Part shown: one piece after another, positions 27,660 through 37,304 of the stretch
Layout of the letters: each line of letters starts with the position of its first letter
How positions within the stretch are numbered: the stretch's first letter is position 1
Made by a program: the position numbers and the translations under genes
DNA from: Marinobacter sediminum
Lineage (GTDB): Bacteria > Pseudomonadota > Gammaproteobacteria > Pseudomonadales > Oleiphilaceae
Assembly: GCF_023657445.1 (NCBI RefSeq)
Contig: NZ_JAGTWY010000001.1
Coordinates: forward strand, 1,302,001 to 1,366,000
Length of the DNA stretch: 64,000 bases
Direction of reading: 5' to 3'
Notes under the pieces: model-generated
Seen by the model: only the letters and a program-made list of their open reading frames with translations
Database searches by the model: none
What the model was told of the DNA's origin: nothing

Positions 27660-28967
27660 GTGTCGATGGCATCAGAGAAAGAAATGCCCAAAGAGGTCGC
27701 AGCCTGGAAGGATCCGGAGATGGACTCGGTTAAAGGAACCGAGACCCCCAAGGATCCAAACAAGGGCTACATCGCCCTGCTTGGCTGGAGCATCAATGCG
27801 ATCAAGGCTGCGCAAAAGTTTGACCGGCGCTATATCGTGGTTGCTCCGGATTGGGCAGCGGATTTCTGTACCGCAAACAAGATACCGTTCATCCCATGGG
27901 ATTTTATCCGTCTCAATGATCGCTCCATGGAGATTGCTGAAAAGCTAAAGGCGGAAGGTGTCGATGTCGCCATCCCGTTATTTGAGGAAACCGTCGAGTG
28001 GTCCGGTGCCATAAACTCCGTCCTCCTCGACAGCCCTCGTATGTACGGCCAATCTATCCTGTTTCGTGACAAGGCTCTGATGAAGCGCCGTGCACAGCTG
28101 GGTGGTATTCGCGTCGGGATTTTCGAGGAAGCGCACGAGAAAGACGACATCGTCCGCTTCATGAAGCGCGTCAACCAGACGTTGCTCAAACTTGATGGTG
28201 ACCCGGACGACCCGATTCACGTCAAGGCATTCGACAAAGCCGGTTGCCTCGGCCATCGAATGATTCGCACGATAGAAGAAATCGACCATATTCCGGACGA
28301 AGAATATCCCCTGTTGATGGAAAGTCACCTGAGTGGCTGGGAGTTTGCCGTTGAGGCCTGGATCCACGATGGCAAAATCAAGTTCCTCAATATTTCCGAA
28401 TACGTGACATTGGGCTATTCGGTGTTTGTCCCTGCTACCGAGCAACTTGAGAGCTGGCGCAACGCGATAACCAAGCAGATCGAGCTGTTGATCAAAACCT
28501 TCGACATCAAGTTCGGTTTGATCCATCCCGAGTACTTCGTCACTTCTGACGGCGAAATGTACTTTGGCGAAATTGCGTATCGTCCGCCGGGGTTCAAGGC
28601 TTTCGAGCTTATCGAGCGAGCCTATGGATTCAGCGCGTACCAGGCGTCAATGCTGGTGTTTGACCCCAAGAGCACCAAAGAGGAAGTGGATGCATTCTTC
28701 CCGAAGGAAGTCGTCGACGCGAAGGGCTACGCCGGTTGCTTCGGTGTGTACCCAAGACGTCGTGTGGTCAGCAAGCTGGAAATGCCCAAGGAAACGATTG
28801 AGCATCCCTACTTCGAGTCTCACGAATTGGTCGCGCCGACAGAAGAGACGGTTCCTGACCGGTCAGCCTTCGGAACCCATTGGGGCCTGATTTTCTTCTT
28901 TGGTGACGACCCCATCAAGATGCGGGACCTGCTGAAAGCCCAGGAAGATCTGGACTTCTACGTTTAG
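27660..28967 (+). CDS. ATP-grasp domain carboxylate-amine ligase-like protein
   Basis: Protein of 435 residues. GTG 27660 is preferred because AAGGAG ends about 10 bases upstream; an ATG two codons later is too far away. The N-terminal third is a nucleotide-fold pre-domain (GYIALLGWSINAIKAAQKF). The ATP-grasp core follows, with ILFRDKALMKRRAQLGGI, IHVKAFDKAG, YPLLMESHLSGWEFAVEAWIHDGKI (the acidic strand) and MYFGEIAYRPPG as the metal-binding E-x-x-x-R-P-G. Such enzymes join a carboxylate to an amine or thiol via acyl phosphate. It has no obvious partner gene; a 12-bp-stem hairpin ends the unit. The substrate is unknown. Confidence 0.75.
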   Translation: MSMASEKEMPKEVAAWKDPEMDSVKGTETPKDPNKGYIALLGWSINAIKAAQKFDRRYIVVAPDWAADFCTANKIPFIPWDFIRLNDRSMEIAEKLKAEGVDVAIPLFEETVEWSGAINSVLLDSPRMYGQSILFRDKALMKRRAQLGGIRVGIFEEAHEKDDIVRFMKRVNQTLLKLDGDPDDPIHVKAFDKAGCLGHRMIRTIEEIDHIPDEEYPLLMESHLSGWEFAVEAWIHDGKIKFLNISEYVTLGYSVFVPATEQLESWRNAITKQIELLIKTFDIKFGLIHPEYFVTSDGEMYFGEIAYRPPGFKAFELIERAYGFSAYQASMLVFDPKSTKEEVDAFFPKEVVDAKGYAGCFGVYPRRRVVSKLEMPKETIEHPYFESHELVAPTEETVPDRSAFGTHWGLIFFFGDDPIKMRDLLKAQEDLDFYV

Positions 28968-29287: not shown

Positions 29288-29397
29288 TGTCGCTTGGCAC
29301 GAATCACACCAGATTCTTCCAGGCTGTCTACAATGACATTAACTACACTCCCACAAGGAGTGTTTGTTCCTCAGGCCATTACCCCAGGAAGAGGATT

Positions 29398-30582
29398 ATG
29401 ACAACAACAAAGTCCAAAGTTGTGTATTCCCCAGTGTTTACCGACGGTGCGGAATTTCGGATTCCCACGTTCAAGCTTCTGAAACAGGACGGCAAGCTCT
29501 ACAAGAGCGCCAAGGCTCCTGATCTCGATAAAGACAAGGCCCTTCGGATTTACCGGGCCATGGTCACCACCCGAATCCTCGACGAGCGCATGCTTGCCGC
29601 TCAGCGGCAGGGCCGCTTGAGCTTCTACATGCAGTGCACCGGCGAGGAAGCCGCCGTGATCGGCAGTGCCGCCGCACTGGATGATGGCGACATGATCATG
29701 GCGCAGTATCGGGAGCAAGGTGCCCTCGCCTATCGCGGCTTTACCATCGACGAATTCATGAACCAGTTGTTCGGCAACGAGATGGACTATGGCAAGGGCC
29801 GCCAGATGCCGGTTCACTATGGTTCCAGCAAGCTGAACTACATGACCATCTCCTCCCCGCTGGCAACGCAGATACCCCAGGCCGCCGGCTACGCTTATGG
29901 TCAGAAACTCCGGGGCGAAGGTCTCTGCACCATTACCTATTTTGGTGAAGGCGCCGCCTCGGAAGGCGACTTTCATGCTGCGCTGAATATGGCCGCGGTT
30001 CATCGCGTGCCGGTTATCTTCCTGTGCCGCAATAACGGCTATGCCATTTCCACACCAGCCGCCGAACAGTTTGCTGCCGATGGTGTGGCACCCCGTGCCT
30101 ACGGCTACAAGATGGACGTCATCCGGGTGGATGGTAACGACATTCTTGCGATGTATCAGGCTACACAGGAAGCGCGAAAGCTGGCCGTGGAACACAACCG
30201 CCCGGTGCTGATTGAGGCCATGAGCTATCGCCTGGCTGCTCATTCTTCATCCGACGACCCGTCCGGCTATCGCAGCAAGGATGAAGAAGCCGTATGGCGC
30301 GAGAAAGATCCCATCCTGCGCATGCGCCTCTGGCTGGAAAGCAAGAAATGGTGGAGCGAGGACGACGAAAAGCAGCTCCAGGAAAACATGCGCCGCGAAG
30401 TGCTCGAAACCATGAAGCGGGCCCAGAAACGGCCGCCGCCCCCGCTTGAAACCTTGGTGAGCGATGTCTACGACGAAGTCCCGCCCGCCCTGGCTGAGCA
30501 GTTCGACAAACTGAAAGCACATATCCGCCGCTACCCGGATGAGTACCCAAAGAGTGCCGAACACGCCAAGGGAGGAGCATGA
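29398..30582 (+). CDS. bkdA1: Branched-chain 2-oxoacid dehydrogenase E1 alpha subunit
   Basis: Protein of 394 residues; ATG 29398 with AGGAAGAGG upstream is preferred over a distant ATG at 29287 that would overlap the operator. It is a thiamine-diphosphate decarboxylase subunit: [20 protein letters not shown], then the ThDP motif [31 protein letters not shown]. The loop [17 protein letters not shown] (Ser283-285) is equivalent to the phosphorylation loop of mammalian E1 alpha. With E1 beta and E2 it converts 2-oxo acids from Val, Leu and Ile to acyl-CoA. It heads the operon and ends 1 bp before the E1 beta start. Confidence 0.93.
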
Positions 30583-30583
30583 G

Positions 30584-31561
30584 ATGACCAAGATGAATAT
30601 GCTCCAGGCGATCAATAATGCCCTCGACACCGCCATGGCAGAAGACGAGCGAGTGCTGTGTTTCGGTGAGGATGTCGGCGTTTTCGGCGGCGTTTTCCGT
30701 GCCACCAGCAACCTGCAACAGAAGTACGGCAAGGCTCGCTGCTTCAACACACCGCTGGTGGAACAGGGCATCATCGGCTTTGCTAACGGCCTCGCCGCGC
30801 AGGGCTCGGTGCCAGTGGCCGAGATTCAGTTCGCCGACTACATCTTTCCGGCCTTCGACCAGATCGTCAACGAATCCGCAAAGTTCCGTTACCGTTCCGG
30901 CAACCTGTTCAACGTCGGTGGGCTGACCATTCGCGCGCCATACGGCGGCGGCATTGCCGGTGGCCTTTATCACTCCCAGTCACCGGAAGCCTACTTTGCC
31001 CACACGCCGGGTCTCAAGATTGTGGTGCCGCGCAACCCGCACCAGGCCAAAGGACTGTTACTGGGTGCCATCCATGATTCCAACCCGACCCTGTTTTTTG
31101 AGCCGAAACGACTTTATAGAGCTTCCGTTGGCGAGGTGCCGGATGAAGACTACCGTCTGCCGCTGGGCGAAGCCGAAGTGCTCAAGGAGGGCACCGACGT
31201 AACGCTACTGGGCTGGGGCGCTCAGATGGAAGTTATCGAAAAGGCCGTTGAGGCTGCGGAGAAGGATGGCATTTCCTGCGAAGTCATCGACCTGAGAACG
31301 ATTCTGCCCTGGGATGTGGAAACCGTCGCCAATTCGGTGTTCAAGACCGGGCGCCTGGTGGTTACCCACGAAGCTCCCCTGACCGGCGGTTTCGCCGGTG
31401 AAATCGCCGCGACCATACAGGAGCGTTGTTTCCTGTATCTGGAGTCTCCGATCGCACGGGTTACCGGGATGGATACTCCCTTCCCGCTGGTGCTGGAAAA
31501 AGAGCACCTGCCCAATCACCTGAAGGTCTACGAGGCCATCAGGGCGAGCGTTGAATTCTAG
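30584..31561 (+). CDS. bkdA2: Branched-chain 2-oxoacid dehydrogenase E1 beta subunit
   Basis: Protein of 325 residues with GGAGGA before ATG 30584. Transketolase pyrimidine-binding pattern: [65 protein letters not shown] and [20 protein letters not shown]. The C-terminal domain has [13 protein letters not shown] and [14 protein letters not shown]. It forms the alpha2-beta2 E1 with the preceding gene product. The E2 gene follows after 26 bp. Confidence 0.95.
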
Positions 31562-31587
31562 GCTGATATCAGGACAGGAGAGCAACT

Positions 31588-33198
31588 ATGAGTGATTTTA
31601 TACTGCCCGATATCGGCGAAGGTATCGTGGAATGTGAACTGGTCAAATGGCTGGTCAGTGAAGGCGACGTGATCGAAGAAGACCAGCCGGTGGCCGAGGT
31701 GATGACTGACAAGGCTCTGGTCGAGATTCCGGCACCGTACAAGGGCCGGGTGACTCGCCTTTACCATAAGGAAGGTGACATCGCGAAGGTCCACGCCCCA
31801 CTTTTTGAACTGGTTGATGAGAGCGCGGACACAGGCACGGACATAGGACAGCAAACTCCGGATGCTAGTGAAACGTCACCCTCTGCCGACAAGGCACCGG
31901 AAGTAAATGCGCAGTCGGGAAAAAGCCCGGGGGCCGGCGACGAGACCACCGAAGACTTTATCCTGCCGGATATTGGCGAAGGCATCGTTGAGTGTGAAGT
32001 GATGGAATGGCGTGTGGCCGAAGGTGACGAGATCGAGGAAGACCAGCCTGTGGTCGATGTCATGACCGACAAGGCCGTGGTTGAAATCACAGCCCCTAAA
32101 GCCGGCCGCATCACCAAGCTTTACCATGAGCAACAGGCTATGGCCCGGGTGCATTCACCGCTATTCGCCTTTATTCCCCGCGACCGTGATGAGCCGCATG
32201 AGACAAAAGCCGAATCAAAGCCGGCACCGGAACCCTCACCGGCAGCGGAAAAACCCGTTGCGGCCGGGAACCGGCAACGTATTCCCGCCAGTCCGGCTGT
32301 CCGTCGACTGGTCAGGGAAAACGACCTGAACCTGGGTGAAATCGCCGGTTCCGGCAAGGACGGACGCGTACTGAAAGCCGATGTGCTGGCTCACCTCGAC
32401 AAGCCCGCGGCCCCTGCCCGGAGCCAGGAGTCCTCCAGCGAATCACAGCCAGCAACCATGAACCGTGAAAGCAGGAAGCCGGCCAGTGAACAGGAAGTTC
32501 GGGTGGAGCCGATCAGAGGCATGAAAGCGGCGATGGCCCGCAGCATGGTTACGTCGGCAACCACTATCCCTCACTTTATCTACAGCGAGGATATTGATGT
32601 CACCGACCTGCTGAGCCTGCGGGAGCAACTCAAACCTGAGGCAGAGGCCAGCGGCTCGCGGCTGACACTGATGCCCTTCTTTATGAAGGCGATGGCTCTC
32701 GCGGTCCAGGAGTTCCCGGTACTCAACAGTCGGATTAACGACGACGTATCGGAGATTCACTACCTGCCCCGGTGCAATATCGGCATGGCCGTGGACAGTA
32801 AAGCCGGTCTGATGGTTCCGAACGTCAAAAGCGTTGAGAGCCTGACCTTGCTGGGCGTTGCTGATGAAGTGGCCCGCCTGACCGAGGCGGCCCGATCAGG
32901 CCGGGTAAGCCAGGAGGACCTCAAGGGCGGTACCATCACCATCTCCAATATCGGCGCGCTGGGTGGCACCTATGCCTCACCCATTATCAACGCTCCGGAA
33001 GTGGCGATTGTGGCTCTGGGCCGGACCCAGAAACTGCCACGCTTCGACGCCAACGGCCAGGTCGTGGAGCGAGCCATCCTGACTGTGAGTTGGGCCGGAG
33101 ACCATCGAGTTATCGATGGCGGTACCATTGCCCGTTTCTGCAATCGGTGGAAAGGCTATCTGGAATCGCCCCAATCGATGCTATTGCATCTGGGCTGA
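31588..33198 (+). CDS. bkdB: 2-oxoacid dehydrogenase E2 (dihydrolipoyl acyltransferase) with two lipoyl domains
   Basis: Protein of 536 residues. Two tandem lipoyl domains lie at about 1-78 and 122-200, with lipoylated lysines in VMTDKALVEI and VMTDKAVVEI and nearly the same surrounding sequence. A Pro/Ala/Glu linker follows, then the peripheral-subunit-binding domain (PASPAVRRLVRENDLNL) at about 230-270, another linker, and the catalytic domain from about 305 ending with the active-site DHRVIDGGTIARF. BkdB proteins usually carry one lipoyl domain, so the duplicate is noteworthy. No E3 (lipoamide dehydrogenase) gene is next to it. The protein kinase gene starts 9 bp later. Confidence 0.93.
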   Translation: MSDFILPDIGEGIVECELVKWLVSEGDVIEEDQPVAEVMTDKALVEIPAPYKGRVTRLYHKEGDIAKVHAPLFELVDESADTGTDIGQQTPDASETSPSADKAPEVNAQSGKSPGAGDETTEDFILPDIGEGIVECEVMEWRVAEGDEIEEDQPVVDVMTDKAVVEITAPKAGRITKLYHEQQAMARVHSPLFAFIPRDRDEPHETKAESKPAPEPSPAAEKPVAAGNRQRIPASPAVRRLVRENDLNLGEIAGSGKDGRVLKADVLAHLDKPAAPARSQESSSESQPATMNRESRKPASEQEVRVEPIRGMKAAMARSMVTSATTIPHFIYSEDIDVTDLLSLREQLKPEAEASGSRLTLMPFFMKAMALAVQEFPVLNSRINDDVSEIHYLPRCNIGMAVDSKAGLMVPNVKSVESLTLLGVADEVARLTEAARSGRVSQEDLKGGTITISNIGALGGTYASPIINAPEVAIVALGRTQKLPRFDANGQVVERAILTVSWAGDHRVIDGGTIARFCNRWKGYLESPQSMLLHLG

Positions 33199-33207
33199 CG
33201 GGATATC

Positions 33208-35052
33208 ATGGCACAGAAGACGGAACTGCAGCAGTTCTACATTCCCGAAGAGCAGTCGATCTATCTGCTCAGCCATGACGATGCCAAGAAGCTCAAGGAC
33301 TGGGTGGCGCTCTGCGCCGCCCAGCTCCGCCAACTGGGTTATCGGGACATTGAGCTGATCGGCAAGGGTGCCTACGGTTTTGTGTTCGCAGGCCGACTGC
33401 CAGGCCAGGCCAAAAGTGGCCCGGAGCACGTCTTCAAATTCACCCGCATCAATCTGCCCCAACACCTGCAGGACCGACTGGAGGATGAGGCTTACATACT
33501 TGAGCAGGTCCGGCACCCAAGGGTACCCCAGCTGATTTCCTATCAGCGTGCCAACAACCAGCCAATTCTGGTCATGGAACGTGCTGCCGGCCTTAACCTG
33601 GAGGAAGTCTCTCTGCGTGAGGGGCGCCTGAAACCCCGGCTCATCATGAGAATCGCCGACCAGCTTGCGGATATACTACGCAGCCTGCGCCGTGAAAATG
33701 GCCGTGCCGGGCGGCCTATCGTCCATGGCGACATCAAACCATCAAACCTGGTCTTTGACGCCACCACCGAAAACATTGCTCTGATCGACTGGGGCTCGTC
33801 GGTGTTTGCTCAGCTGGATGCCAACCAGCAGTTCATTACCGCGAACGTTATGGAGCTCATGTCCGACAACCTCCAGCAAACCAATGCCAGGCTGGGCGAT
33901 GTTTACTTCATCGGAACAGAGCAACTTAACGGCGGGCTATCATCGCCGCGTTTTGACGAACAGGGTGCAGCAGGAACGCTATATGCACTGGCTTCAGCCC
34001 AGTCGTGCCGGTTCGGTCACCGGGCTATCCCCGCCACATCACTGGGGCTGCCGATGGAATTTGCGCGCATGCTGGACGGCATGCTGGCGGCGGATCCTGA
34101 AACCCGACGCAAAGCGGGCGATTACTACCTGAAGGAAATGCCACGCATGGCACGCACCGTGATGATTGATTTGCCGGAGCAGCCCGTCGCAGTGCAGGTA
34201 CCGGTGTGGGTGCGAGCCTCAGAACAGGAAATCGACACGGTTGTATACAGTTCACGCAAATCGTTTCTGCGCGAGGAAGGCGCGCCGGAGACCCTCAACG
34301 ATGTCAATGACGTGCAACTGGATCGCTACTACAAGAATTTCATGCAGGGTATGGGCGAAACCGAGAAAGCGTTTCTGGCCGCTGTCAGCCGGCTTGGCCG
34401 GTACCCTGTCGAGGGCGGCCTCGCAGTGCGATGGGAAACCGACGGTATTTATATCGACACCTCGTTGAACCTGCACGATCCGGATCTGAAGTCGGCCTTC
34501 GAACAGGCAGTCAACAACATGGTGTATCTGGCTCAGGCCATCTATCGCAAGGGCATCTTCAAGAGTTGCCTGTTCAATGCCCGCAACACCCTTCACATTG
34601 ACCGGGCGGAACCCGACCAGCCATTTCTGGTAACGCCCGGGATGAGGTTGCATTACGAGGTGAGCGCTGCACCGGAAGTGGAGGACGAGACTCGCGTGCA
34701 TTCGTACTTCGAGGATGGGCCCGACCCGGAAGAGTTTCTCGTCCTGCCCGAAACCATCATCGGATCGCTCGAGGCACTGAACGACATCCACCACACCGGC
34801 ATGATCATCTTCGAAGCCCTGCCCCGCCATCTCAAGATTCACAGCCACTACCGGCTGCTTGACCCGGACCGGGAACATGAATTCAGCCGGCTTTTGGACG
34901 AGATCCTGTCAGCGGTTGAACAGATCACCGGGCTCGGCGTTTCCGGCTTTATGAAAATGCCCTACAAAGACACCCGGTTTTTCCCTCATATCGAGCGCTT
35001 GCCGGAACGCTACTATCCCCGTAACCCCAGAACCGAAAGTGCTTCCTCCTGA
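33208..35052 (+). CDS. Eukaryotic-type Ser/Thr protein kinase with C-terminal extension
   Basis: Protein of 614 residues. The kinase domain spans about residues 45-300 with a glycine loop GKGAYGFVFAG (52-57), Lys77 in VFKF, HGDIKPSN (Asp175, Asn180) and DWGSS (DFG variant at 194-196), so the catalytic residues are present. A further 300 residues (from about 330) have no family I recognise, and there is no transmembrane segment. The gene begins 9 bp after bkdB stops, with a short GGGA site, and is evidently co-transcribed. A regulatory or assembly role for the dehydrogenase is attractive but unproven. It is not related to the mammalian BCKDH kinase fold. Confidence 0.85.
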   Translation: MAQKTELQQFYIPEEQSIYLLSHDDAKKLKDWVALCAAQLRQLGYRDIELIGKGAYGFVFAGRLPGQAKSGPEHVFKFTRINLPQHLQDRLEDEAYILEQVRHPRVPQLISYQRANNQPILVMERAAGLNLEEVSLREGRLKPRLIMRIADQLADILRSLRRENGRAGRPIVHGDIKPSNLVFDATTENIALIDWGSSVFAQLDANQQFITANVMELMSDNLQQTNARLGDVYFIGTEQLNGGLSSPRFDEQGAAGTLYALASAQSCRFGHRAIPATSLGLPMEFARMLDGMLAADPETRRKAGDYYLKEMPRMARTVMIDLPEQPVAVQVPVWVRASEQEIDTVVYSSRKSFLREEGAPETLNDVNDVQLDRYYKNFMQGMGETEKAFLAAVSRLGRYPVEGGLAVRWETDGIYIDTSLNLHDPDLKSAFEQAVNNMVYLAQAIYRKGIFKSCLFNARNTLHIDRAEPDQPFLVTPGMRLHYEVSAAPEVEDETRVHSYFEDGPDPEEFLVLPETIIGSLEALNDIHHTGMIIFEALPRHLKIHSHYRLLDPDREHEFSRLLDEILSAVEQITGLGVSGFMKMPYKDTRFFPHIERLPERYYPRNPRTESASS

Positions 35053-35081: not shown

Positions 35082-37304
35082 TCAATAAACGTCCTCCAGA
35101 TACCGGCCTTCCCGCTTCAGGTTCTCCACATCCATTTCCAGTGGCTTCAGGATTTCATTGATCACCTGTTTTACGCCCAAAGCCATATCACGCCCACCAC
35201 AGACGAGTATCTGTGCCCCCATTTCAATCATCTGGCGCACGTCCGGCGCATCCTCAATGATTTTATCCTGAACGTAGGCGCTCTCCCGGGTTCTGGAAAA
35301 GGCGGTGTTTAAACGTGTAAGGCGCTGGTCTTCAAGGTAACGGCCAAGCTCCGGCTTGTAGAGGAAATCCGATTGGGGATTCCGGCCGCCCCAGTACAGG
35401 TACATTGGGTGACGAGAGTTATTTTTCCTGATAAACCCTGCGAGTGGTCCGATACCGGCGCCCGCACCAATCAGAATGATCGGTTGGTTTCCCGACGCCG
35501 GTCGGAAATCCGGATTGTGTTGAATGAATCCCTGAATACGCTCGCCAGGCCCCAGATCATGAAGAAATCCGGAACACAACCCTCCGGGCTGCTTGCGAAC
35601 ACAGATTTCAAGCAAGCCGTCATCGCTGGAAGAGGCCAATGAATAATACCTGGCTGGCTTATCGCCGGGTGGAAAAACGCCGACCAGATCACCGGCTTCG
35701 AAATCAGGCAATCGGCAGACTCTTTTCCCGAACAAGCCCAGGGCGCTCCGCTTCTTAGTGGCAGGTCCGAAACGAAGAATACTGGTGGGTGCCCCAATGT
35801 CCAGACCAAAATCGGCTCGGTCTACCAGCTCCAGGTCAAACCGGCTGACAGGTTCTGGATGATAGTTGAGAGTAAGCGGCACTCCCGTCAGATCGGCAAT
35901 GCGATCTCCCCATTCACTGAACTGCTCAGCCGATTGCCGATCAATCAGGGTAACTTCCTCTAACCTTTCGAGCCCGTGATAGCCGAGGGCTTCGTCCACA
36001 TCCACGGCAAACTGACAAAACCGGGGAAACTGCCGGTCACCAAACCCGAGCACCGCGTACTTCAGGCCACGTGTCTCCCGGAAACGCCTGAGCCTCTCCA
36101 TAAACCCGTTCGCTGAAGCCGGTGCACCGCCATCACCATAGGTGGATGTCAGCACGAAAAGTATCGACGCCAGGGGGTATTCTTCGGCGAACCGATTCAT
36201 GTCGACAGAAACAACCCGGCGCCCCGCCCCAGTGAGTTGCTCGTGGAGCACCCTCGCAAACCCCCAGGTCGTATTGTTCTCGGAACCCACCAGGATCACG
36301 GTATCTGCGGTGTCGTTATCGGCATTATCCTGGAGATTTCCTGACGCACGACGACGCAACCACCAGATTCGGGCGCCGGTGACCGAGAGCACCGGAACCG
36401 TCAATGCAGCGGCCCCCACTATCAGGCCAAGCCACCATAAGCCCTCCCCGGTATGGAGTCGGACAATCCACTCAACCATCCGGCTTTTAGCTGGCGTCGC
36501 CTGATATTTCAGAAATTGGCCGGTCGATTGATCAATGAATCCTGAGCCCTGGCGGGTGGTCAGGGAAAACACATCCCGGGGGTCGTTCGGATAAGGAAAC
36601 ACGAGTTCGCGGAGGTTATTGAGGTCTGTATTTTTAAGCGCCTCAAGTGATCCGATGGGTGCCGGTTCGCCACCTGAAACCTCTGCAGGAAACGATGGCT
36701 CGTTGCCGGCCGCATCAGGCAATAAGCCGAATCGTGCCGCTGACATGTAACTGCCGGTCAGGGCGGATAACAACAATCCGATGGCCGCAAACCGTGCCAA
36801 CTCCGAATGGATCCTGTGATCACCGGCACCCTTGAACGGCTTCAAGAGAAAACGCCACCCACCAACGCGACGGGACAACATGAACGCCCCCGAAACACAC
36901 ATCAGGACCATCATGAAAGCCATCGCGCCAGCCAACAGCCGACCGCCATCATCCTGGAGAAAGGCGCGGTGAAGGTCTTTAACCCAACGAAAGAAAGGCG
37001 ATGGCTGATAGGGCCCTATACCCTCGCCTGTTATCGGGTTCACCAGGTCCGCCCCGGGGTTTCCTTCAAGCGTGTAATAGACGATGACCGCGCCTGAGGG
37101 CGACCGTTTGATCTGCTCGGTGCCCGGATAATGCGCCGTCACGCGTTCAACAACCTGCGCCACACTGACCTCACCCGAAGCCGGAATGACCGCACTGGAA
37201 CGCTCCAGCGCGGGTGATACCGATAAGATCGCACCTGTAATGGCAAGGACTGTCAGAAACAAGGCTGCGAACAGGCCCGGAATCGAGTGAAGCTTGCGCA
37301 ACAT
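35082..37304 (-). CDS. PepSY-TM / flavodoxin / FNR fusion reductase
   Basis: Protein of 740 residues. The N-terminal part (about 1-330) has four hydrophobic segments with PepSY-type repeats (LHRAFLQDDGGRLLAG, RLHTGEGLWWLGLI). A flavodoxin domain follows (VILVGSENNTTWGFARVLHEQL, FVLTSTYGDGGAP), then a CysJ-like FAD/NAD(P)H domain (RYYSLASSSDDG, PIILIGAGAGIGPLAGFI, CGGRDMALGV). It should carry electrons from NAD(P)H across the inner membrane to a periplasmic acceptor, as for PepSY-flavoreductases linked to iron or flavin metabolism. It is followed on the same strand by DUF2271 and PepSY genes upstream, and two-component genes are divergent. Confidence 0.85.
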   Translation of the reverse strand: MLRKLHSIPGLFAALFLTVLAITGAILSVSPALERSSAVIPASGEVSVAQVVERVTAHYPGTEQIKRSPSGAVIVYYTLEGNPGADLVNPITGEGIGPYQPSPFFRWVKDLHRAFLQDDGGRLLAGAMAFMMVLMCVSGAFMLSRRVGGWRFLLKPFKGAGDHRIHSELARFAAIGLLLSALTGSYMSAARFGLLPDAAGNEPSFPAEVSGGEPAPIGSLEALKNTDLNNLRELVFPYPNDPRDVFSLTTRQGSGFIDQSTGQFLKYQATPAKSRMVEWIVRLHTGEGLWWLGLIVGAAALTVPVLSVTGARIWWLRRRASGNLQDNADNDTADTVILVGSENNTTWGFARVLHEQLTGAGRRVVSVDMNRFAEEYPLASILFVLTSTYGDGGAPASANGFMERLRRFRETRGLKYAVLGFGDRQFPRFCQFAVDVDEALGYHGLERLEEVTLIDRQSAEQFSEWGDRIADLTGVPLTLNYHPEPVSRFDLELVDRADFGLDIGAPTSILRFGPATKKRSALGLFGKRVCRLPDFEAGDLVGVFPPGDKPARYYSLASSSDDGLLEICVRKQPGGLCSGFLHDLGPGERIQGFIQHNPDFRPASGNQPIILIGAGAGIGPLAGFIRKNNSRHPMYLYWGGRNPQSDFLYKPELGRYLEDQRLTRLNTAFSRTRESAYVQDKIIEDAPDVRQMIEMGAQILVCGGRDMALGVKQVINEILKPLEMDVENLKREGRYLEDVY

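Follow-up and report, generated by a model that had tools for sequence, protein, structure and literature searches.

A 64,000-nucleotide window of the 3.88 Mb Marinobacter sediminum genome (NCBI RefSeq assembly GCF_023657445.1, contig NZ_JAGTWY010000001.1, positions 1,302,001 to 1,366,000 of the forward strand) encodes a eukaryotic-type protein kinase directly behind the genes for the E1 alpha, E1 beta and E2 subunits of a branched-chain 2-oxoacid dehydrogenase complex (BCKDH). We propose that this protein, whose nearest relatives are from Marinobacter, is a Ser/Thr kinase dedicated to a BCKDH of mitochondrial type, and that it would phosphorylate a loop of E1 alpha at Ser293, at Ser283 or at both; judged from sequence comparisons, this reading has a probability of about 0.6. 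The dedication to BCKDH, already put forward in the initial annotation of the stretch, is well supported by the co-occurrence of the kinase with one type of E1 alpha and by its retention where the two genes are unlinked. That annotation had placed the four genes at 29398..35052 with the kinase 9 bp past bkdB, and both the coordinates and the spacing of nine bases from the E2 stop to the kinase ATG were recovered. Other genomes (G) and loci (L) are cited below by our own numbers.

The kinase matches PF00069, its best Pfam family, at residues 45-208 with 64 bits (cut-off 31.7), and all five of its Pfam matches at E<=1 fall inside residues 45-218. A match to APH (PF01636; 32 bits, cut-off 23.2) is among the weaker ones. 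An AlphaFold2 model of the kinase was obtained with a predicted local distance difference test (pLDDT) of 81.5 and a predicted template modelling score (pTM) of 0.85, and the 50 PDB matches listed for the kinase domain by structure comparison are protein-kinase entries or complexes containing one. The protein has the sequence features of a Hanks-type protein kinase (PF00069), namely a glycine-rich loop, the catalytic Lys, the alpha-C Glu, HxDxKxxN and DxG, with DWG in place of DFG, and the catalytic residues are complete, as had been annotated. No variation occurs at K77, E94, H173, D175, K177, N180, D194, W195 or G196, either among 74 aligned sequences, made up of the window's kinase and 73 relatives of 50-92% identity chosen from the homologues listed, or among all 164 loci that contain the kinase domain, a set in which some genomes appear more than once. 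Stops were flagged in three kinases (G494, G801, G1106), but these fall outside the aligned stretch. Mitochondrial BCKDK has a GHKL (histidine-kinase-like) fold. Neither the GHKL ATPase domain nor the BCDHK N-terminal domain is among the five Pfam matches, in agreement, on the kinase side, with the earlier statement that the mitochondrial kinase belongs to a different fold. AceK is likewise absent from the Pfam (E<=1) and NCBIfam (E<=0.1) families of the protein. A paralogue search in its own genome returned one other match, at 29% identity over the kinase domain stretch.

The E1 alpha encoded in the operon belongs to the mitochondrial type of BCKDH. Among solved structures it is closest to human BCKDHA, with 401.9 bits for the best PDB matches against 250 (1um9), 240 (1w85) and 214.6 (2bp7) bits for the best bacterial chains, and it carries Ser at both human loop positions, Ser292 and Ser302, which we take to be the human phosphorylation sites. 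It scores under the NCBIfam cut-offs for E1 alpha of pyruvate dehydrogenase. The E1 alpha gene of G736 adjoins acyl-CoA dehydrogenase, enoyl-CoA hydratase and 3-hydroxy-3-methylglutaryl-CoA (HMG-CoA)-lyase-like genes, together with carboxyltransferase and biotin carboxylase subunits of the methylcrotonyl-CoA carboxylase kind, and members of these neighbour gene clusters also adjoin E1 alpha in G648, G548, G719 and G629. Such leucine-catabolism neighbours favour BCKDH over pyruvate dehydrogenase. The E2 comprises, by Pfam, two lipoyl domains, an E3-binding domain and a catalytic domain.

Whole genomes were sampled independently of the kinase at the level of the order (390), class (369) and phylum (329), and an E1 alpha was called close at 60% identity or more and E<=1e-151, and distant at about 40%. 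In the order sample 53 genomes hold a close E1 alpha, 51 the C-terminal domain of the kinase and 49 both (Fisher p 6e-55, uncorrected for relatedness). As Fisher values count related genomes as independent, the weight is carried by lineage-collapsed tests. Only two of the 337 order genomes that have no close E1 alpha match the kinase, one of them by a fragment only, and the 16 genomes of the window's genus in this sample divide into 12 with both genes and 4 with neither. The class sample contains five genomes with a close E1 alpha, two of them shared with the order sample, and the kinase is present in all five; a sixth genome, G362, holds a kinase fragment at a contig end. In the phylum sample a close E1 alpha occurs in 20 genomes, 10 of them new, and each of the 10 has the kinase (53-61% identity). 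Since all 20 belong to the window's class, the association is one shown within that class. When the family and genus of G716 are added (the family of G505, 12 genomes, contributed none), the combined gammaproteobacterial set comprises 79 distinct genomes with a close E1 alpha, with the kinase present in 66 and absent from 13. Genomes with a distant E1 alpha only have no kinase (0/17 in the order sample and 0/12 in the class sample, 0/29 together). Eleven of the 13 kinase-less genomes come from one genus, that of G716 and G681, and the others are G505 and G737. The absences in G1100, G1102 and G1108 are weak, as these genomes are 82-89% complete; in G1108, scored as kinase-less, only about 75 bases of contig remain beyond E2, and in G1100 1.3 kb remain.

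In the 80 closest kinase loci of named genomes, E2 lies upstream of the kinase in 79 and E1 alpha in 76; three of the four loci that have no E1 alpha meet a contig end, and the stretch of the fourth (L079) starts in E1 beta. About 7.6 kb, including a methyltransferase-like gene, separate E2 from the kinase in L079 (Halomonas ramblicola), and three long open reading frames in this gap matched no Pfam family. According to the initial annotation, its proposal would fail if the kinase turned up elsewhere as frequently as next to bkd; this check came out in favour of the proposal. Of the 66 genomes, 55 have the kinase within the operon or next to it, allowing one intervening gene and counting two contig-cut operons (the operon is broken between contigs in G645 and G801). 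In the remaining 11 it is kept far from bkd, either at a distance of between 50 kb and about 2 Mb or on a different contig; these are G648, G569, G548, G719, G526, G629 and G736 of one family, G987, G1010 and G1057 of another, and G1082. The unlinked label requires three changes on a tree of 42 kinases. The kinase and E1 alpha trees have family-level clades in common, with weak deep forks, and their distances correlate over the 42 genomes (r 0.83, above 1000 of 1000 shuffles). Because the kinase is kept when unlinked and the trees agree, proximity alone is insufficient as an explanation of its inheritance. Clustering of the genes flanking the 11 unlinked kinases revealed no gene family beside all of them, with few neighbours annotated. 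In G348 and G1036 (L158, L238), RlmJ-like and acyl-CoA thioesterase genes flank the kinase.

An unrelated signalling or defence kinase carried along with the operon could take up such a position by chance, and the best PADLOC profiles for the kinase domain are indeed PD-T4-6 defence kinases (E 1e-22, residues 35-212 of 614). Hitchhiking of this kind is disfavoured and very improbable given that the kinase persists in the 11 genomes where it is unlinked, that 335 of the 337 order genomes lacking a close E1 alpha have no kinase match, and that none of the 29 genomes with a distant E1 alpha has one.

In the mammalian complex, the E1 alpha loop with the phosphorylation sites binds thiamine diphosphate. 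The initial annotation had singled out Ser283-285 in this loop as equivalent to the mitochondrial target; Ser283 does align with human Ser292, and Ser293, the equivalent of human Ser302, had not been mentioned. Position 283 is Ser in 43/43 kinase-bearing and 13/13 kinase-less close E1 alphas and in 76/76 named kinase-bearing loci that hold E1 alpha, and in 12 distant kinase-less E1 alphas it is Ser (9/12) or Thr (3/12). We then compared positions conserved in at least 90% of kinase-bearing sequences over scan windows of E1 alpha, E1 beta and E2, the kinase-bearing set comprising 38 of the 66 sampled genomes and five named relatives chosen for breadth. In a first scan of five loss lineages, with G716 and G806 counted as one, the loop at residues 277-293 ranks 1 of 702 scan windows for conservation lost where the kinase is absent (6/40 changes in kinase-less against 1/129 in kinase-bearing E1 alphas). 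This 17-residue segment is the annotated loop extended to human Ser302 and was inspected before the scan, so only later-added genomes are new data for it. Nine such genomes come from the genus of G716. Two are kinase-bearing and have the usual loop; among the seven kinase-less ones, four deviate at residues G290 and/or S293, all within the clade of G716, and three are unchanged. In a rescan with the added genomes the loop still ranks 1 of 691 (p 0.0013 or 0.0017 in two ways of counting), the next separate scan window having p 0.03-0.04, and the lost conservation is mainly at residues G290 and S293. Because scan windows overlap, a first place among about 700 amounts to no more than roughly 1 in 40. 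Position 293 is Ser or Thr in 42/43 kinase-bearing and 7/13 kinase-less E1 alphas, and Ser in 76/76 named kinase-bearing loci holding E1 alpha. In a tree built without the loop, the deviating genomes of the G716 genus form one clade of six, with N, T or G at position 293, and G505 deviates apart; the kinase-less label requires four changes on this tree, and a fifth case, G737, lies outside the tree.

It is this loss of conservation, not Ser283, that points to the loop. The kinase might be dedicated to BCKDH yet act on another part of it, such as E2 or E1 beta, or be a partner in assembly, and the co-occurrence data fit this equally. Weaker excesses of kinase-less change were found at E1 beta 51-67 (p 0.03-0.05) and E2 515-531 (p 0.04-0.08). 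Both come after the E1 alpha loop, with its p of about 0.001, and would be lost on correction for about 40 independent scan windows, and a kinase with invariant catalytic residues is hardly a structural component only. We consider a target elsewhere in the complex, or a role in assembly, unlikely, though it is the strongest competitor of phosphorylation at the E1 alpha loop.

Several observations weigh against a kinase dedicated to BCKDH and acting on this loop. The complex occurs without the kinase in 13 of 79 genomes, and the kinase is therefore dispensable. Ser283 was rejected as a diagnostic of the kinase, since a position that is invariant with and without it carries no information. The kinase-bearing G438 has Asn293 and the kinase-bearing L048 has Ser290, while among kinase-less genomes G798, the G749 clade and G737 show no loop drift except Thr293 in G737. 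As three of the five lineages show no drift, the loop signal rests on two, one of them the clade of six. No phosphatase gene was found among the neighbours scanned, the genome itself not having been scanned for one. In view of the APH match (32 bits), the substrate could conceivably be a small molecule. Finally, G566 holds a full-length kinase (88% to P0202) and no close E1 alpha, which could mean that bkd was lost recently or that the kinase does more than serve BCKDH. This genome and G684, which has a kinase fragment with a stop, stand as exceptions. G1091, which is 80% complete, also has a full-length kinase and no E1 alpha; the end of E2 adjoins its kinase at a contig end, which indicates that the operon had been there.

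The case of G566 raises the alternative of a broader role for the kinase in the catabolism of branched-chain amino acids. Its substrate would then be an acyl-CoA dehydrogenase, some regulator or a small molecule of the pathway, and BCKDH no more than its usual neighbour. In G566 (L154) an acyl-CoA dehydrogenase gene follows the kinase, with neither a close E1 alpha nor E2 beside it, and in G523, of the same genus, the same pair follows E1 alpha, E1 beta and E2. A gene of this kind comes after the kinase in 5 of the 8 kinase-bearing genomes of that genus with flanks read (G523, G586, G681, G801, G566), and the weak APH similarity would fit a small-molecule substrate. However, G566 is one clear case against 66, no gene family accompanies all 11 unlinked kinases, few of whose neighbours are annotated, and the signal in the E1 alpha loop also speaks against this role. 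Such a broader role thus appears improbable.

The C-terminal extension of the kinase was annotated as some 300 residues of no known family, which holds: residues 320-614 have no Pfam match and no PDB sequence at E<=1. The extension has an invariant stretch around H498-S499-Y500-F501. In a Pfam scan of the 74 kinases one member matched DUF3023 somewhere along its length (E 0.006), and a sub-threshold NCBIfam match to CRP (E 0.064) touches residues 299-351 of the kinase. Modelled alone, the extension gave no convincing fold match. A profile-profile comparison aligns residues 391-450 with residues 519-578 (E 3.5e-4, with a probability of only 37), and five column-permuted and two unrelated-segment controls gave E 0.045-0.54. 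In the AlphaFold2 model, a helix-strand-strand-helix-strand order is common to both halves. The profile match suggests that the extension may hold an internal duplication. The coordinates of all features are given in Table 1.

Table 1. Features of the BCKDH operon and of the candidate kinase; positions refer to the 64,000-nucleotide window.
Feature	Position	Strand	Basis
bkdA1-like, E1 alpha of mitochondrial-type BCKDH, 394 aa	29398..30582	+	PF00676, E 9e-98
E1 alpha loop, residues 277-293	30226..30276	+	Alignment to human BCKDHA chains
E1 alpha Ser283 codon (aligned with human Ser292)	30244-30246	+	
E1 alpha Ser293 codon (aligned with human Ser302)	30274-30276	+	
bkdA2-like, E1 beta of BCKDH, 325 aa	30584..31561	+	Transket_pyr and Transketolase_C
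bkdB-like, E2 acyltransferase of BCKDH, 536 aa	31588..33198	+	PF00364 (two stretches), PF02817, PF00198
Candidate BCKDH kinase, Hanks-type, 614 aa	33208..35052	+	
Kinase domain, residues ~45-318	33340..34161	+	PF00069 and AlphaFold2 model; domain end judged from model
C-terminal extension, residues 320-614	34165..35049	+	No sequence match in Pfam or PDB
Internal repeat 1, residues 391-450	34378..34557	+	Profile-profile match to repeat 2
Internal repeat 2, residues 519-578	34762..34941	+	Profile-profile match to repeat 1

Two genes upstream of bkd were considered as operon members and rejected. The first, at 27669-28967 (+), has a sub-threshold ATP-grasp match only (PF13535, 23.6 bits, cut-off 27), and its protein is matched in 0/80 relatives' loci; the second, of LysR type, is matched in 2/80, both at 26-28% identity. 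A terminator-like hairpin at 29345-29363 lies about 34 bases 5' of the E1 alpha start, and shuffled sequences give hairpins at a similar frequency. A gene convergent with that of the kinase, at 35082-37304 (-), fuses PepSY transmembrane domains to flavodoxin and NAD-binding reductase domains. In L227, L229, L231, L233, L234, L235 and L236 genes of one cluster lie directly upstream of E1 alpha. The L227 member is a deacylase of AstE/AspA type, for which we know of no link to BCKDH.

By analogy with the mammalian complex, phosphorylation of the loop is a likely mechanism. The kinase, encoded in the cluster that also holds the genes of its proposed target, would phosphorylate the thiamine-diphosphate-binding loop of E1 alpha at Ser293 and/or Ser283, and its C-terminal domain probably docks it on the BCKDH complex or may sense a metabolite. 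Phosphorylation would lower BCKDH activity, so that flux from branched-chain keto acids falls when sparing is needed, and a phosphatase would reverse it. The bacterial kinase is best read as convergent with mitochondrial BCKDK. A fuller scenario, in which a kinase of different fold came independently in Gammaproteobacteria to switch the same E1 alpha loop and was lost about five times, with loop drift in two of the cases, is more tentative and falls somewhat short of even odds. To our knowledge, phosphorylation as a means of controlling BCKDH is regarded as specific to mitochondria. We found no report of a bacterial BCKDH kinase in the open literature, a weak sign of novelty, as the search took in few subscription papers and no bioRxiv preprints. 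If the proposal is true, kinases of two different folds would have converged on the control of one enzyme type at a single loop, an orphan family of bacterial kinases would gain a substrate, and its extension would be a lead to a domain for targeting or sensing that is new. Culturable Marinobacter and Halomonas should allow testing.

One account of the mammalian system (PMC9356071) describes inactivation of BCKDH by BCKDK and reactivation by PPM1K. The candidate resembles the BCKDK/PPM1K system in that its proposed target is an E1 alpha of the same type, with Ser at the positions of human Ser292 and Ser302, and it appears to share with BCKDK a dedication to BCKDH. Unlike BCKDK, it is a Hanks-type kinase (PF00069) and is encoded in the bkd cluster. 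StkP, PknB and similar Hanks-type kinases have the same kinase domain and catalytic motifs, whereas the candidate has DWG for DFG, a location in a metabolic cluster and a C-terminal domain of no known family with a weak internal repeat; the word "dehydrogenase" does not occur in the main text of a 2018 review of bacterial Hanks-type kinases (PMC6213207). The PD-T4-6 profiles of PADLOC score best for the kinase domain, but the best match spans residues 35-212 only, and the candidate has a metabolic context and co-occurs with bkd. Among bacteria, AceK is an isocitrate dehydrogenase kinase/phosphatase dedicated to one central metabolic enzyme. The candidate would be, like AceK, a bacterial kinase dedicated to a single metabolic enzyme, from a different family and with a different target and pathway.

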